A stretch of 56,514 nt of DNA from Bacteroidota bacterium (GTDB lineage Bacteria > Bacteroidota > Bacteroidia > NS11-12g > UBA9320). Every line of letters starts with the position of its first letter. The stretch's first letter is position 1. The position numbers and the translations under genes were made by a program. The stretch is from the NCBI GenBank assembly GCA_013359235.1, contig JABWCE010000017.1, positions 1-56,514 of the forward strand. The letters are read 5' to 3'. The notes under the pieces are model-generated. The model did not search any database and was not told the DNA's origin. It saw only the letters and a list, made by a program, of their open reading frames with translations. Below, piece after piece: positions 1 to 4,848 of this stretch.

Positions 1-82
1 CATTTTCAGCATCAATCAAAGAATCTAAGCAATCGGGTATCAGCACCATTTGTTCCCTGCATTGTCCTTGAATAAAATTCAT
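1..82 (-). CDS. IS1182-family transposase, N-terminal fragment (runs off left edge)
   Basis: The minus strand from the ATG at 82 reads MNFIQGQCREQM and then a VLIPDCLDSLIDAEN stretch, 27 codons up to the window edge. This matches the well-conserved N-terminus of IS1182-group DDE transposases, which start with MNFIQGxxREQ and an LPDCLDxxI segment before the DDE core. Only the start is visible, so intactness of the transposase cannot be judged. The gene would continue to the left of the window. Family assignment rests on motif memory over a short stretch but is quite specific. Confidence 0.8.
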   Translation of the reverse strand, partial: MNFIQGQCREQMVLIPDCLDSLIDAEN

Positions 83-130
83 GATGTAAAGATAGGTTAA
101 CGCTAATAATCACACAATGTTTCAGCCTCA
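1..130 (-). mobile_element. Right-hand end of an IS1182-like insertion sequence
   Basis: The transposase start at 82 leaves 48 bases of noncoding sequence before the point (about 130) where homology to a second repeat copy at 1644 begins abruptly. That breakpoint is the natural place for the IS end. The terminal inverted repeat cannot be confirmed because the other IS end lies outside the window. The exact boundary is inferred. Confidence 0.5.
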
Positions 131-235
131 AACTAATGCACATTTTATAAAGAAACGTGATGAGTTTTTAGACAGTCTGACGGTTTGGGTATTGCCGAAG
201 GCGGGGCGTTTCAGCATCCCGAAGCTTCGGGATTG
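130..235 (+). repeat. 106-bp direct repeat, copy A, left of the Fic gene
   Basis: Positions 130-235 align without gaps to 1644-1749 at a constant offset of 1514, with about 14 mismatches, ten of them clustered in 199-212. Shared landmarks are a TGCACATTTTATAAAG segment, a GAGTTTTTAGACAG segment and an 18-bp palindrome at the right end. The two copies flank the Fic gene and its promoter. The left part of copy A may be cut off by the insertion sequence. Confidence 0.85.
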
Positions 236-296
236 ATTTGAAAAACTAATGTTTGATTAACCTCAAAACTGTCTTTGGAACACGAAACCCCGCCTT
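198..296 (+). repeat. Long imperfect hairpin between copy A and the Fic gene
   Basis: AAGGCGGGG (198-206) can pair with CCCCGCCTT (288-296), and after a two-base bulge TTTC (209-212) pairs with GAAA (284-287). This makes a 13-bp stem enclosing about 71 bases, including the 18-bp palindrome. The arms are strikingly GC-rich for this genome. This resembles recombination-site hairpins such as integron attC, but no integrase is in the window. Confidence 0.6.
216..233. repeat. 18-bp perfect palindrome, first copy
   Basis: ATCCCGAAGCTTCGGGAT is self-complementary with no loop. The identical sequence occurs again at 1730-1747 at the same place within the second direct repeat. It has no U-tract directly after it, so it is not a typical terminator. 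Confidence 0.85.
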
Positions 297-309
297 TTGG
301 GTAGGTGCT

Positions 310-318
310 GTTAGTAGC
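310..318 (+). repeat. GTTAGTAGC boundary, inverted partner of 1560-1568
   Basis: GTTAGTAGC here is the exact reverse complement of GCTACTAAC at 1560-1568. The pair brackets a 1.26-kb unit that contains only the Fic gene and its control region. The arrangement fits a mobile cassette with inverted core sites, but nine bases could also recur by chance, so this is a suggestion supported mainly by the flanking direct repeats. Confidence 0.45.
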
Positions 319-367
319 TGGGCGATTTTAATATTTGTTTGGTCATTGGTTCTATTAATTTTCATTG

Positions 368-1408
368 TTATTTTATCGTGTAACTCACATTGCGTCCGCT
401 TCCTTGTTTTTCAATAAATCCTTTGTTGAGCAACTCAGACAAAATGCGTTTTACGGTTGGTGCAGGTATCGCCAACTTTTCGGCAATTTCTCCCGACTGG
501 ATGTTCGGACGGTTTTGAATAATAGATAAAATTGATTTTTCTTTGGGCGAAAGCTGTGTTTCCATTCCACTTTTTTGCAATTTCGTCAGCAGTTGCGATT
601 GGATATTTGACAAGCAATTCAAAAAGAACTGTATCCAAACGGTTACATCTTCGTTTGGGCGTTGTGCCTGACAACTTCTAAGCACCTGATAATATTCGTT
701 TTTTCGGTTTTCTATTTCGTGTTCAAAACTCACGTATTGTATCCATTTATATCCGTTTTTGAGTAGCAAAAGCGTTGAAATCAAACGGCTTAACCTGCCG
801 TTTCCGTCTTGAAATGGGTGAACGCTCAAAAAATCATAGACAAAAGACGCTACTTTGATTAACGTGTGTACTTCCGTTTCGGAATTATACCAATTGAGCA
901 AAGCCCTTATGGCATCTTCGGTGGCAAATCCCGCTTCGGTGGTTTGAAAAATGATTTGTCGTGTGCCGTCAGGAAATGAGGCTTCAACCGCATTACTATG
1001 CAGCTTATAATTGCCTTTATGCCATTCGTCTTTGGCACTGTATTTCATCAAACTATTATGTAAACTTTTGATATGGCTTTCGGTAACGCTTATGTTTTCA
1101 TAAGATTCCGAAATCAAGTCCAGTACTTCAAAATAACCGACTACTTCCTGCGAGTCTCTGTCAGTAAGCTTGGTAATATCAATTTTTTGAAGCAACACAT
1201 CAACTTCTTCATCGCTCATTCTGTTGCCTTCAATACGGTTTGAAGCCCCTACGCTTCGCACGGTAGCAATGCTTTTCAACTCTTTAAGGCTTTGTCCTTC
1301 TCTGCGTTCAATAGCTGTCCAATTTGCATCAAAACGGTCTATTTCACTGATTAAGTTAATCAGCTTCCAATCAATTTTTAGTTTAAAATTATATACTCCG
1401 TTGTTCAT
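368..1408 (-). CDS. Fic-family protein adenylyltransferase with C-terminal winged helix
   Basis: Fic enzymes transfer AMP (or a related group) from a nucleotide to hydroxyl side chains of target proteins. The catalytic motif HPFQDGNGRLSR lies at residues 197-208 with the active histidine at 197. An inhibitory motif of the (S/T)xxxE(G/N) type, SNRIEG, is at 56-61, so the enzyme carries its own N-terminal brake and needs no separate antitoxin. Residues from about 285 to 346 look like a winged helix-turn-helix (PNIQSGEIAEKL and a following recognition helix), which suggests DNA binding or self-regulation. The gene stands alone between two direct repeats, is more GC-rich than its surroundings and sits next to an IS, all signs of horizontal transfer. 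The target protein is unknown. Confidence 0.93.
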   Translation of the reverse strand: MNNGVYNFKLKIDWKLINLISEIDRFDANWTAIERREGQSLKELKSIATVRSVGASNRIEGNRMSDEEVDVLLQKIDITKLTDRDSQEVVGYFEVLDLISESYENISVTESHIKSLHNSLMKYSAKDEWHKGNYKLHSNAVEASFPDGTRQIIFQTTEAGFATEDAIRALLNWYNSETEVHTLIKVASFVYDFLSVHPFQDGNGRLSRLISTLLLLKNGYKWIQYVSFEHEIENRKNEYYQVLRSCQAQRPNEDVTVWIQFFLNCLSNIQSQLLTKLQKSGMETQLSPKEKSILSIIQNRPNIQSGEIAEKLAIPAPTVKRILSELLNKGFIEKQGSGRNVSYTIK

Positions 1409-1411
1409 TTT

Positions 1412-1503
1412 GATACGATTTGATACGCAAAGATACGTTTAAAATTTGAAACCGCAAATAATAAATGATACGTTTTGATACGTTTAGATTTGATTATGAT
1501 ACG
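1412..1503 (-). promoter_or_regulatory. Fic promoter overlaid with six phased GATACG/CGTATC repeats
   Basis: On the coding (minus) strand a TTTG (1458-1455) is followed after exactly 19 bases by TATCTTTG (1435-1428), matching the Bacteroidota -33/-7 promoter (TTTG and TAnnTTTG). GATACG (plus strand) occurs at 1412, 1422, 1432, 1467, 1477 and 1498. Spacing is 10, 10, 35, 10 and 21 bases, so most copies lie on one helix face. One copy overlaps the -7 box, two lie between it and the start codon and three lie upstream of -33. This is the layout of an operator array for a repressor, plausibly the Fic protein's own winged helix. Confidence 0.7.
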
Positions 1504-1559
1504 AAAAATGTCATTGTTTTCAGTCGTGCGGTTGTCGTGTTGTTGGTTCGTCACGCCTT

Positions 1560-1568
1560 GCTACTAAC
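1560..1568 (+). repeat. GCTACTAAC boundary, inverted partner of 310-318
   Basis: Exact reverse complement of 310-318. It forms the left end of the hairpin site at 1564-1728 and closes the Fic unit on its right. Confidence 0.45.
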
Positions 1569-1728
1569 GTCAGTTTGTCTAAAAACTCAAAAGTAAAATT
1601 AAAATATTCAAGCGGCAAGGCTTATTGGAAGAAAAAAAGGGATAAACTAATGCACATTTTATAAAGAAACGTGAAGAGTTTTTAGACAGTTTGACGGTTT
1701 GCGTATTGACGATGTGACGTATTGTTAG
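1564..1728 (+). repeat. attC-like hairpin site between Fic and CopD-like genes
   Basis: CTAAC (1564-1568) pairs with GTTAG (1724-1728). The adjacent 20 bases 1569-1588 pair with 1676-1695 at 17 of 20 positions, with the three mismatches together in the middle. The outer and inner stems are separated by an asymmetric 28-base segment, and the loop is about 87 bases. Outer CTAAC/GTTAG ends with an imperfect inner stem recall integron attC sites, but the site is longer than usual (165 bases), departs from the RYYYAAC/GTTRRRY core and has no visible integrase. Confidence 0.45.
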
Positions 1729-1749
1729 CATCCCGAAGCTTCGGGATTC
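1644..1749 (+). repeat. 106-bp direct repeat, copy B, right of the Fic gene
   Basis: Same orientation and gap-free alignment to 130-235. Unlike copy A it keeps a left inverted partner (1569-1588) for its GAGTTTTTAGACAG segment, so it looks like the more complete site. It ends with the 18-bp palindrome and is followed within about 26 bases by the end of the CopD-like gene. Confidence 0.85.
1730..1747. repeat. 18-bp perfect palindrome, second copy
   Basis: Identical to 216-233. It lies 28 bases beyond the stop codon of the minus-strand CopD-like gene, so it could also act as a weak RNA hairpin at the end of that transcript, although no T-run follows on the minus strand. Confidence 0.85.
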
Positions 1750-1775
1750 AATCGAAGAACTGCACTTGAACCAAA

Positions 1776-2291
1776 CTAAATATATCTTGCCAAGCCCATA
1801 AGTATAAGGCAAAGAGAAAGTAAAACTGCCTCAAAGTTTGTTGCTTTAACAATTTGGTTACTCAATGAATTAATTTTATCAATATCCTCATTAGATGGAG
1901 GATTGTTTGACTGTGCAATTTTATTTGCTATTTCATCAATTTTATTGCCTTTGGGTTTTATATAAAACACTCCATTTAAAAAAGCTATTACAGCAAGTAT
2001 TCCACCAATAAGAATGCACATGCCGAATGAACTTGTAAAATATACCCATCTGAATTCTGACATGTAGTAAATAACCCAAACGCCTGTAACTATGGTTATA
2101 AATCCTGAAATGGTCATAGCAGCAGGCATATTATTGGTTTTGGGCAAATATGACATAAACTGCCCGCCAATACTGCCACTGCGTTTTACAGCAGGATATA
2201 TAAACAATGCCATAAATATGTTTGAACCTACCCAAATAGTACCAAACACAATATGCAGCAGTCTTATATATGTTATTATTTCAGTGCTCAT
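1776..2291 (-). CDS. CopD-like / DUF2269-type membrane protein
   Basis: The protein of 171 residues has about four hydrophobic segments (roughly 7-30, 48-75, 80-105 and 148-168). The first contains RLLHIVFGTIWVGSN, the histidine-bearing first helix typical of CopD/DUF2269 family membrane proteins, some of which are linked to copper handling or haem binding. A hydrophilic loop with a predicted helical character (about 112-145) separates helices three and four. It is the last gene of a minus-strand run and follows a 51-residue membrane peptide by 15 bases. The start is the ATG at 2291. Copper involvement is only a family-level guess. Confidence 0.75.
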   Translation of the reverse strand: MSTEIITYIRLLHIVFGTIWVGSNIFMALFIYPAVKRSGSIGGQFMSYLPKTNNMPAAMTISGFITIVTGVWVIYYMSEFRWVYFTSSFGMCILIGGILAVIAFLNGVFYIKPKGNKIDEIANKIAQSNNPPSNEDIDKINSLSNQIVKATNFEAVLLSLCLILMGLARYI

Positions 2292-2306
2292 TTTTTTATT
2301 ATAATT

Positions 2307-2462
2307 TTAATTTGAATTTTTCTTGTCCTTTTCCTTTTTTTCGGCTTCTTGTTTGCGTTTAAAATCTTTGAAAATAAAGTAAACTCCAATAAATACAATA
2401 GTTGTAATTACTATTTCTGATAAAAGCAGTTGGTTGAATAGTTCTTGTTTTGTGTTTGCCAA
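2307..2462 (-). CDS. Small single-span membrane protein (51 aa), TTG start
   Basis: A frame starting with TTG at 2462 encodes 51 residues. It has a short N-terminal part with NTKQELFNQLLL, one hydrophobic span (about residues 14-31, EIVITTIVFIGVYFIF), and a strongly basic/acidic tail (KRKQEAEKKEKDKK). It ends 15 bases before the start of the CopD-like gene and begins 7 bases after the stop of the secreted protein upstream, so it fills an otherwise empty gap in the operon. The composition with a charged coiled tail is typical of small membrane proteins that assist a partner. No family was recognised. The lack of an ATG start lowers confidence. Confidence 0.55.
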   Translation of the reverse strand: MANTKQELFNQLLLSEIVITTIVFIGVYFIFKDFKRKQEAEKKEKDKKNSN

Positions 2463-2469
2463 TTATTTT

Positions 2470-4848
2470 TTAATTTTTTATAAAAACAAAATTATATGTT
2501 TTATTTTCAAATGTAATATTTAAAAAATAATAACCAATTTTAAGTTCAGAAATATCAATAATCCGGGATGTGTAAAATTCTGTATCTAATATGTTTCTTC
2601 CGGTGTAGTCGTTTATTTTTACTAATAATTTGCTTTTTGAAAAGTATTCAGATTTTATGTTTATAAAATTATTTGAAGGATTGGGAAATACCGAAAATGG
2701 CAATTTTTTTAAAATTGAAATTTCGGTTGGTCTTTTAAAATTAAATGTATCTGAAGTGTTGTAGCACATCATATTATTCGAAACCTTTACTATAATCATA
2801 TCTGTAGAATCAGGTTGCGAAATTTGGATAAATGTATCGTTCAAATTGCCATTGTATGCTGCTTTGTTTATTTTAATAATCTCAAAGTTGTAATTATACT
2901 TGTTATTGAAATTTAATACCCGAACACTGTAATTGTCTATTTGTTTCAGCAATGGTTTGTCGGGTATTTCAAAATTTGAAATTTTACAACTTAGGCTGTC
3001 TTTACATTGTGTGAAAGTGTCAGTAAATATTAGTTTGTACACAAAGTTTGTATCTTTGTTTGTATTAAATTTAAAAGTTGTTGATTTTTTGTAAGCGTCA
3101 TTCAAATTTTGCTGTGGACTCCAGTAAAATCTGATATTTTGAGTATCGCCATCCACATAAACCGGATTTATGAAAATTGAATTTGCGGTGCATACTTTGT
3201 AAATGGTATCTTCAAGCGAATAATGCGGAATGTTTTTATAGAAGAGATAAATGTCTTTTTCGGCGGTACATTCGGCTATTGTTGATTTTACTTTTGCAGT
3301 AAAAATTTTGTTTGAATTTCCGGTTTTCCAATATTCTGTAAATTTGAAATGTTTTCCGTAATCTTGGCTTGTTGTTTTATCAATCCAAGTAATTGTAGTA
3401 TTTGCAATGCTGTCGCCGCCAATAATTGCATCAGATTTGCGGCATACCTGTAGGGTGTCATTAAATGGAATTTCAATTTTTATATATTCAATTAAAGTTA
3501 CTGAATCTTTAGCAATGCAACCTCCTGTTTTTGGTATTGCACTAAGCAAAAACTTGTGATTTCCGGTACCTGAATATTGGTAGGTTGTTTTATTTTCTTG
3601 AATAATTTTTCCGTTTTTATATAGTTTGTAATTGCATAATTGTGTGTCGGCTGATATTATTTTTTTGCCTAATGAAACTGTATTTGAGCTACAGTAATTT
3701 ATAGTGTCTTTATCAAAAAAATCTGATGAGGGAACGTAAGGAATCACAACATCTATTTCATTTAGGCTATAAAAAACCGGATTTGTACTTTTTATTCTCA
3801 ACTTGTATGAAGTGCCATAAAACCTGAATTTTTCGGGTAATGAAATTTTGTATGAATTTGGCTCTGAGGTTGTAACTATTTCACCGGTTTTTACAGGAGA
3901 AGTAAATTTTCCATTGCCGTCAGAAAGTTCAACAATAAATGAATTTGATTGGTTATATGTACCAATTCCCTTGTACATAATATTGGTGTTTACATAAAAA
4001 CTGTCGCCAGGGCACTTGGCTGTATCAGCATAATCAATATATATCATGTGGAGTTTATAAAATTCTACTTTATTGCAATTTGAGCACGCAATGCCAAGCA
4101 CATCGTACATTTTATTAAAAATTAATCCTGTGGGTTTGCTGTAACCTATAAGTGATTTTGCATTTTTAAAATCTTTACCAAGCCTGTAAACATAGCTATC
4201 GCCCCAACTTGTGGCATAAAAATTTCCTTCAAGGTCTTCTACAATAGAGTTAATATAATCAATAGTAGTGGTTTGAAGCAATGATTTGTACCCATTTGAT
4301 GTATTTACAATATAAACTTGCGAATTTGTAGTATCAGAAGTACATAATAAGCGGTTTTTACTGTCAAAAAGTAATGCTTTTGCATTCCTAAAATTACAAA
4401 GTGTAGAAAAAGTAGGTATATAAAAAGGAGCACCTCCAACTTCAACTTTAAAAATTTTATGTGCTTTTGAGTCGCTCATGTAAAAAATATTTGATTTTGT
4501 TTTGTCAATTTCGCAATCTTCAAGGTCTATTGCTCCATTTACATCAAAACTTGCAATTAGTTTAAAACTATCAGCATCATAAACCTTTACTGCATTGCTG
4601 TCTAAAATTAGTAAACCTTTGTATGGTCCGAAAACAGAAAAAATCAAATCTTTGGGGCTTGTCAAACCTGTAATTATTTCTTTTTTGTTAAAGTTAGAAT
4701 CCAATCGGGTAATTGTTTTTCCTTTGTTGTTTGAAATATAGTACGATTTTGATTTTGAATCAAAAGCTATACTGTTTGGTTTATCATAGCCCTTTGAAAT
4801 ATTAGTTAAAAGAATTACAATCGGAAAAAGGATTAATTTTATTTTCAT
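2470..4848 (-). CDS. T9SS-secreted protein with N-terminal beta-propeller
   Basis: Starting at the ATG at 4848 gives a clean signal peptide (MKIKLILFPIVILLTNISKG). A longer frame from 4899 overlaps the previous stop as TAATG and would add 17 residues before it, so coupling from there cannot be excluded. Residues from about 24 to 270 resemble NHL/SMP-30-type propeller blades (PNSIAFDS, PKDLIFS, INSIVEDLEGNFY). A long middle region has repeated beta-sandwich-like segments with paired cysteines. The last 75 or so residues (FSVFPNPSNNFINI to the end) are a type A T9SS C-terminal sorting domain, so the protein should cross the outer membrane and be anchored on the surface or released. Total length is 792 residues from the chosen start. 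Ligand is unknown. Confidence 0.85.
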   Translation of the reverse strand: MKIKLILFPIVILLTNISKGYDKPNSIAFDSKSKSYYISNNKGKTITRLDSNFNKKEIITGLTSPKDLIFSVFGPYKGLLILDSNAVKVYDADSFKLIASFDVNGAIDLEDCEIDKTKSNIFYMSDSKAHKIFKVEVGGAPFYIPTFSTLCNFRNAKALLFDSKNRLLCTSDTTNSQVYIVNTSNGYKSLLQTTTIDYINSIVEDLEGNFYATSWGDSYVYRLGKDFKNAKSLIGYSKPTGLIFNKMYDVLGIACSNCNKVEFYKLHMIYIDYADTAKCPGDSFYVNTNIMYKGIGTYNQSNSFIVELSDGNGKFTSPVKTGEIVTTSEPNSYKISLPEKFRFYGTSYKLRIKSTNPVFYSLNEIDVVIPYVPSSDFFDKDTINYCSSNTVSLGKKIISADTQLCNYKLYKNGKIIQENKTTYQYSGTGNHKFLLSAIPKTGGCIAKDSVTLIEYIKIEIPFNDTLQVCRKSDAIIGGDSIANTTITWIDKTTSQDYGKHFKFTEYWKTGNSNKIFTAKVKSTIAECTAEKDIYLFYKNIPHYSLEDTIYKVCTANSIFINPVYVDGDTQNIRFYWSPQQNLNDAYKKSTTFKFNTNKDTNFVYKLIFTDTFTQCKDSLSCKISNFEIPDKPLLKQIDNYSVRVLNFNNKYNYNFEIIKINKAAYNGNLNDTFIQISQPDSTDMIIVKVSNNMMCYNTSDTFNFKRPTEISILKKLPFSVFPNPSNNFINIKSEYFSKSKLLVKINDYTGRNILDTEFYTSRIIDISELKIGYYFLNITFENKTYNFVFIKN

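Follow-up and report, generated by a model that had tools for sequence, protein, structure and literature searches.

The window, a stretch of 56,514 nucleotides from a Bacteroidota bacterium (source genome G000, 44 contigs), includes close to its left end a fic gene flanked by two direct repeats (Table 1). The first-pass annotation of this DNA described the gene as a cassette with an integron-like layout, lying between 106-bp direct repeats in constant register, bracketed by a 9-bp inverted pair, and with outer CTAAC...GTTAG ends at one junction. The register of the repeats is as described but their length is 118 nt. The inverted pair, GTTAGTAGC (310-318) and GCTACTAAC (1560-1568), is an exact match and the outer ends are present at 1564 and 1724-1728. 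The functional orientation of the repeat unit, as read from its sequence, is the minus strand. On this strand the fic cassette starts with GTTAGTAGC, the exact complement over 9 bp of its own R'' box, GCTACTAAC. Since this is the usual complementarity between a cassette start and R'', fic can be considered an integron cassette in minus orientation, and the cassette layout is borne out by this complementarity and by the attC boxes. The same complementarity was found in other cassettes of the source genome (10 bp in loci L030 and L037, 9 bp in L040, and twice in L041) and is also kept across genomes. Upstream of the fic start codon, nucleotides 1411-1506 include repeated motifs of the TGATACG type, which form a 41-nt direct repeat (73%). 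These motifs could possibly be an operator for the winged helix of the Fic protein itself, which would give the cassette its own regulation.

Table 1. Features of the fic locus. Assignments to attC, IS and MITE are predictions from sequence comparison.
Feature	Coordinates	Strand	Description
Direct repeat D1	130-247 and 1644-1761		118 nt, 85% identity between copies
Left end of putative full-length IS1182-family-like IS	1..182	-	Located in the fic cassette attC; continues beyond the contig end
Terminal repeat of this IS	182-162	-	
Start of its transposase ORF	82-2	-	MNFIQGQCREQMVLIPDCLDSLIDAEN...
attC of the fic cassette up to the insertion point	183..318	-	R'' GCTACTAAC at 318-310, L'' arm, variable loop with ATCCCGAAGCTTCGGGAT, L' arm ending CCCAAAC
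fic cassette body	310..1567	-	Begins at the G|TT crossover (between 1568 and 1567) and extends through R''
fic cassette gene	368..1408	-	346-aa Fic-domain protein with C-terminal winged helix; PF02661 E 4.8e-14, HTH_24 1.1e-9
129-bp MITE of the IS1182-like element	1568..1696	-	Ends CGTCAAACTGTC.../...GACAAACTGACG; between L' and R' of the attC of the upstream cassette
3' half of the upstream attC	1697..1775	-	L' arm GTCACATCGTCAATACGC and loop with ATCCCGAAGCTTCGGGAT at 1730-1747; R''/L'' half missing

The attC of the fic cassette was matched by a covariance model (described below) at C31:175-316 with an E value of 9.6e-9; its R' box lies beyond the IS, off the contig. The outer L'' and L' arms of this attC pair poorly, which gives it the look of a chimera between two types of attC. 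The CACCTACCC type seems to be represented by its 5' arm and the GGCAATACCC type by its 3' arm, so that pairing is confined to the inner stem. The half attC upstream of fic is comparable to other sites: the same 3' half is found in L027, and complete empty sites are found in the source genome. The segment 1697-1775 can be read as the edge of the array, beside a chromosomal gene (1776-2291). The R' box at this locus, GTTAGTA, deviates from the strict GTTRRRY. Several attC loops (at 216-233 and 1730-1747, and in L026, L027 and L043) include the perfect hairpin ATCCCGAAGCTTCGGGAT or a close variant of it, which is perhaps a terminator located within the cassette end.

The occurrence of the repeat is far beyond chance. 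The block 1560-1749 showed 29 matches within the source genome, with a best non-self E value of 1.7e-68, and the 118-bp repeat has about 25 genomic copies located on many contigs and often at contig ends. A search of the whole genome, which had been proposed together with the cassette interpretation, found these copies dispersed beside unrelated genes, and not at a single locus or always next to the same genes. On contig C1 they form a same-strand array with a spacing of about 1-2 kb, and the genes between them code for a HigBA-type toxin-antitoxin pair, a second Fic protein and an OGG-like glycosylase. Rfam searches of window nucleotides 1-3000 gave no match. As the repeat is palindromic and dispersed and borders cassettes of different genes, the 130-165 bp unit could itself be a new recombination site defining a family of cassettes unrelated to integrons, which was the reading of the first-pass annotation. 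We regard this as very improbable, since identical ends flank complete IS1182 transposase genes, cassettes that obey the same core rule occur without the element, and typical attC structure lies just outside of it. The repeat unit is instead best read as a composite of about 53-67 bp of the left end of an IS or MITE and about 50 bp of the 3' half of an attC. An IS1182-family IS, or its MITE, would thus be lodged in attC, and this insertion is the reason for a site length and hairpins that are odd for an attC.

When the copies are aligned on the minus strand the order is gene, R'' (..TAAC), L'' arm, variable loop, L' arm ending ..AAAC or ..AAAA, element, and TTA.. of the next cassette. The element starts with CGTCAGACTGTCTAAAAAC and ends with GTTTTTAGACAAACTG(A/C/G)CG, the terminal ends of both IS and MITE being CGTCAG/CTGACG. 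Complete copies are either MITEs of 114-137 bp or ISs of 1717-1738 bp that include a transposase gene. The former have the characteristics of MITEs as they are short, lack a transposase, and share terminal repeats and the attC target with the IS. The transposases of complete elements with the same ends in a related genome, G037, matched the IS1182 model NF033551 with 329 and 317 bits (cut-off 270) and include DDE_Tnp_1/DUF772 domains; these domains and the model match ruled out that the element belongs to the IS1111-attC group. The IS copy in the window includes only 27 transposase residues, with an N-terminus that resembles MKFIxGxxRxQ, and this short piece gave no match to family models. The G037 transposase had no match in the source genome. 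As the assembly lacks the body of the transposase, we infer the IS1182 family of the window copy, whose ends are those of complete IS1182 elements in related genomes. The transposase N-terminus is found at two contig ends of the source genome, in the window contig and in C17, and the missing body is as expected of a collapsed repeat.

The right end of the element is followed by TT in 53 of the 56 distinct copies from all loci, its left end abuts an attC L' arm in nearly all cases, and its orientation is constant. Complete 1.7-kb ISs with the same ends and attC site were found in G037, Pedobacter and Flavobacterium, and targeting of attC was also seen in Pedobacter puniceum, P. glucosidilyticus, Flavobacterium caseinilyticum, F. 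xueshanense, F. orientale and others. The site statistics together with this recurrence therefore define a targeted IS group. That the element is a MITE or IS with inverted ends would also be expected if the repeats were randomly scattered MITEs and their cassette look a coincidence, an explanation that is hardly credible: nearly all insertions are at a single attC position, with site statistics that refute random insertion, the C1 array has one orientation, and the cassette ends are complementary over exactly 9-10 bp. With respect to the target, a 2-bp duplication of CG and no duplication fit equally. A few copies (L029, L033 and L042) are outside of recognizable attC sites. At L030:1164-1291 and L034:6404-6530 a MITE is located between two facing attC L' arms with R' on neither side. 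This arrangement suggests that the palindromic MITE mediated an inversion or the fusion of two occupied sites, and demands an extra rearrangement if elements insert in attC sites.

Occupied and empty sites, a search for which had been suggested earlier, are both present in the source genome. Empty attC sites read ...AAACC|GTTA and occupied sites AAAC-CGTCA..TGNCG-TTA. An attC without the element on contig C43 has the sequence GTGCATAAC..CCGCCAAACC|GTTACAGGC, with an R'' that is the complement of GTTATGCAC, sited just downstream of an integrase gene. Further empty sites were found in L037 and L040, each of which chains by 9-10 bp to the next cassette. A covariance model made from 20 attC sites, 13 of which were occupied sites with the element removed, identified 27 sites in the source genome, 14 that adjoin an element and 13 that do not. 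The features found are those of attC, namely an imperfect hairpin, the R'', L'', L' and R' boxes, and a bottom-strand fold. The folded bottom strand of attC is the substrate form of IntI. Folding of the bottom strand, another check proposed with the cassette interpretation, showed that the empty attC in L086 forms an R box, an unpaired central spacer and an L box, and is more stable (z -3.8) than the top strand (z -1.9). The possibility that the MITE hairpin leaves the folding of attC intact was rejected: in one MITE-bearing attC the L stem is kept and R' is drawn into the stem of the element, and a second site loses most of its attC fold.

The earlier statement that no integrase is visible holds for the window, but the genome includes on contig C43 an IntI-like integrase gene (L041:3434-4573) with an attI-like core and a chained cassette array behind it. 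The window array and the integrase are on different contigs, and the link to attI is broken by a contig end. The best NCBIfam model for the C43 integrase was NF040815 (XerA/integron integrase) with 198.6 bits (cut-off 220), and the score with TIGR02249 was 190.7 bits (cut-off 265) with model positions 180-245 unmatched. Among solved structures the protein comes nearest to XerA, an archaeal Xer-like protein and IntI4, the closest PDB entry by sequence being 5hxy. Alignments showed that the IntI-specific insertion, of about 37 residues (..DKDLADGWGRV.LPDALDRKYPNA..EWRWQWVFPQ), is present in all 10 canonical IntI proteins of the phylum that were compared and absent from all Bacteroidia integrases that span the region. 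Most of these integrases without the insertion, hereafter patchless integrases, share a C-terminal SPxDxL motif; two Xer-like proteins of the source genome included in the alignment have neither the insertion nor the motif. The patchless integrase is related to IntI, and a tree, which has long branches, did not resolve whether patchless integrases form one clade apart from canonical IntI.

Integrase homologues in related genomes are followed, at a distance of about 130 bp, by a conserved junction such as TATAAACAAGTTATAGGC. At 9 of 13 usable loci the junction 8-mer has its exact complement at the R'' of the downstream attC (1.2 expected from permuted pairs), and at 8 of the 13 the chain extends to a 9-mer (0.37 expected by permutation). 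A simple hairpin scan gave 27 matches, compared to 3 in shuffled sequence. Not all neighboring recombinases are of this kind: the tyrosine recombinase next to a site on contig C5 (L027:17293-18510) belongs to a different type, with an arm domain, and was rejected as the integron enzyme. The two integrase-proximal cassettes of the source genome (L041:4663-18840) are about 5.5 and 8.7 kb long and include type III restriction-modification-like genes and a SIR2 and HerA pair. Because these large cassettes carry such gene sets, whole defence systems may travel as single cassettes. Several contigs of G001 (L050, L073, L074, L075 and L076) include only the last 40-60 codons of the integrase, mostly followed by an attI-like junction and a cassette, which possibly represent several attI copies with a truncated integrase or assembly breaks at a repeat. 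A homologue in G037 (L079:6094-7191) has INTQ in place of the catalytic tyrosine motif YTH and no attI-like junction behind it, and is probably inactive.

In a sample of 149 genomes of the class Bacteroidia, 116 had attC covariance matches and 82 had a patchless integrase, the latter at a threshold better than 1e-70 that was set to separate these proteins from XerC/D-like matches at about 1e-55. Sites were found in 80 of the 82 genomes with a patchless integrase and in 36 of the 67 without it (Fisher p 3e-11, which is only indicative since the genomes are related). A closed record, the plasmid of Chryseobacterium sp. SNU WT5, includes in one array the integrase, annotated as 'site-specific tyrosine recombinase/integron integrase', an attI-like junction and six attC model matches. 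The cassettes carry one gene each and share a common orientation, and the array also contains insertions of the IS110, group II intron and IS1182-like kinds. The same plasmid (L140:15140-22850) includes about four copies between cassettes of a cassette-like unit of about 150 bp that starts with GTTGGGAAAA and has no obvious gene, similar to the gene-less cassettes of Vibrio superintegrons. Relatives of the integrase with about 44% identity are found on Acinetobacter, Bradyrhizobium and Klebsiella plasmids. Real attC arrays could also be mobilized by a canonical IntI from elsewhere, the patchless recombinase being a bystander or having another role. Canonical IntI proteins are common in the phylum's other classes: of 395 Bacteroidota-phylum genomes, 105 have one over the cut-off, and nearly all of these are from outside Bacteroidia. 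As mentioned, 36 genomes have attC without the patchless integrase. However, it is the patchless gene that co-occurs with attC in the class sample and that in many genomes precedes, by the distance given above, an attI-like core chaining with the first cassette, and only one genome of the same class, G094, was seen over the IntI cut-off. We therefore consider the mobilization by canonical IntI unlikely.

The best explanation, to which we assign a probability of roughly 0.9, is that nucleotides 1-1775 of the window are a piece of an integron cassette array in which attC has been invaded at the L'-R' junction by an IS1182-type element or its MITE, with a patchless integrase encoded elsewhere in the genome. 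Recombination at G|TT, between attI and the bottom strand of attC in its folded form, would be catalyzed by the patchless integrase in the manner of IntI. The attC hairpin would be recognized by the IS1182-type transposase, which would insert the element in the central spacer. Such an insertion would pull R' into the element's own stem and, as judged from folding alone, probably hinder the later excision of the occupied cassette. Recognition of a hairpin is plausible since IS1272, of the IS1182 family, was reported to target inverted repeats with no target duplication (PMC5678879). Points that weigh against this explanation are an integrase without the insertion held essential for IntI, the missing window transposase, and two attC sites of which one is chimeric-looking and the other a half site. 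The separate contigs of window array and integrase, the departure of R' from its strict form, the MITEs between facing L' arms and the few element copies outside recognizable attC sites count against it as well. It also seems fairly likely that Bacteroidia hold a major overlooked integron branch, with an integrase in which the IntI-specific insertion is lacking and would then not be required for recombination of folded attC, and with arrays parasitized by an attC-targeting IS1182 branch and its own MITEs.

Bacteroidota are listed in reviews among the holders of integrons (PMC8618304), and IntegronFinder 2.0 identified in Bacteroidetes proper one complete integron, in Salinibacter, only In0 elements having been known earlier (PMC9024848). 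The IntI-specific domain has been described as defining or essential (PMC9668308; PMC8138268), and within an integron-like subgroup the insertion was found not fully conserved (PMC8138268). In the open literature, subscription journals and bioRxiv being outside the search, we found no paper that describes integrons of Bacteroidia with a patchless integrase, and none that describes IS1182 elements within attC. The fic unit is an ordinary-looking cassette, and it is the integron type, widespread in Bacteroidia, that is apparently unreported. Within the literature searched, the patchless-integrase integron and the attC-targeting IS1182 branch would be new, and the cassette family itself would not. 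Because the IntI domain is lacking, the system can be classified as integron-like by function and yet as a new variant. The insertion has served as a mechanistic hallmark of integron integrases and as a filter to find integrons in genomes. If Bacteroidia integrases work without it, one of the commonest bacterial classes holds integrons that have escaped notice, and the grip of the enzyme on folded attC DNA could be tested by comparison. The IS1182 branch would represent a second, unrelated solution to the targeting of attC beside IS1111-attC, and a handle on hairpin-targeted DDE transposition.

The system shares with integrons (sedentary chromosomal or CALIN) the cassettes, the R''/R' complementarity, the position of the G|TT crossover, bottom-strand hairpin attC sites with L and R boxes, an attI beside a tyrosine recombinase, and a cargo of toxin-antitoxin and defence genes. 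It differs in that the Bacteroidia recombinase has no IntI-specific insertion, the integrase gene is on the cassette strand with attI at its 3' end, attC measures about 120-130 bp with a core GTT(A/G)NNN, and the arrays are spread across many contigs. While XerA and the NF040815 recombinases are the closest relatives by PDB sequence and NCBIfam model, the C43-type integrase has the IntI-type C-terminus SPxDxL and a linked attI/attC array. The fixed position and orientation of the IS in attC are shared with the IS1111-attC elements ISKpn4 and ISPst6 (cited in PMC11187229), which have a DEDD enzyme and subterminal repeats, whereas the element described here has a DDE transposase of the IS1182 family and terminal inverted repeats. 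Staphylococcus IS1272 (PMC5678879) has in common with it the IS1182 family and inverted-repeat (hairpin) targets, but IS1272 replaces the target inverted repeat, while here both halves of attC stay and the element is located in the spacer.
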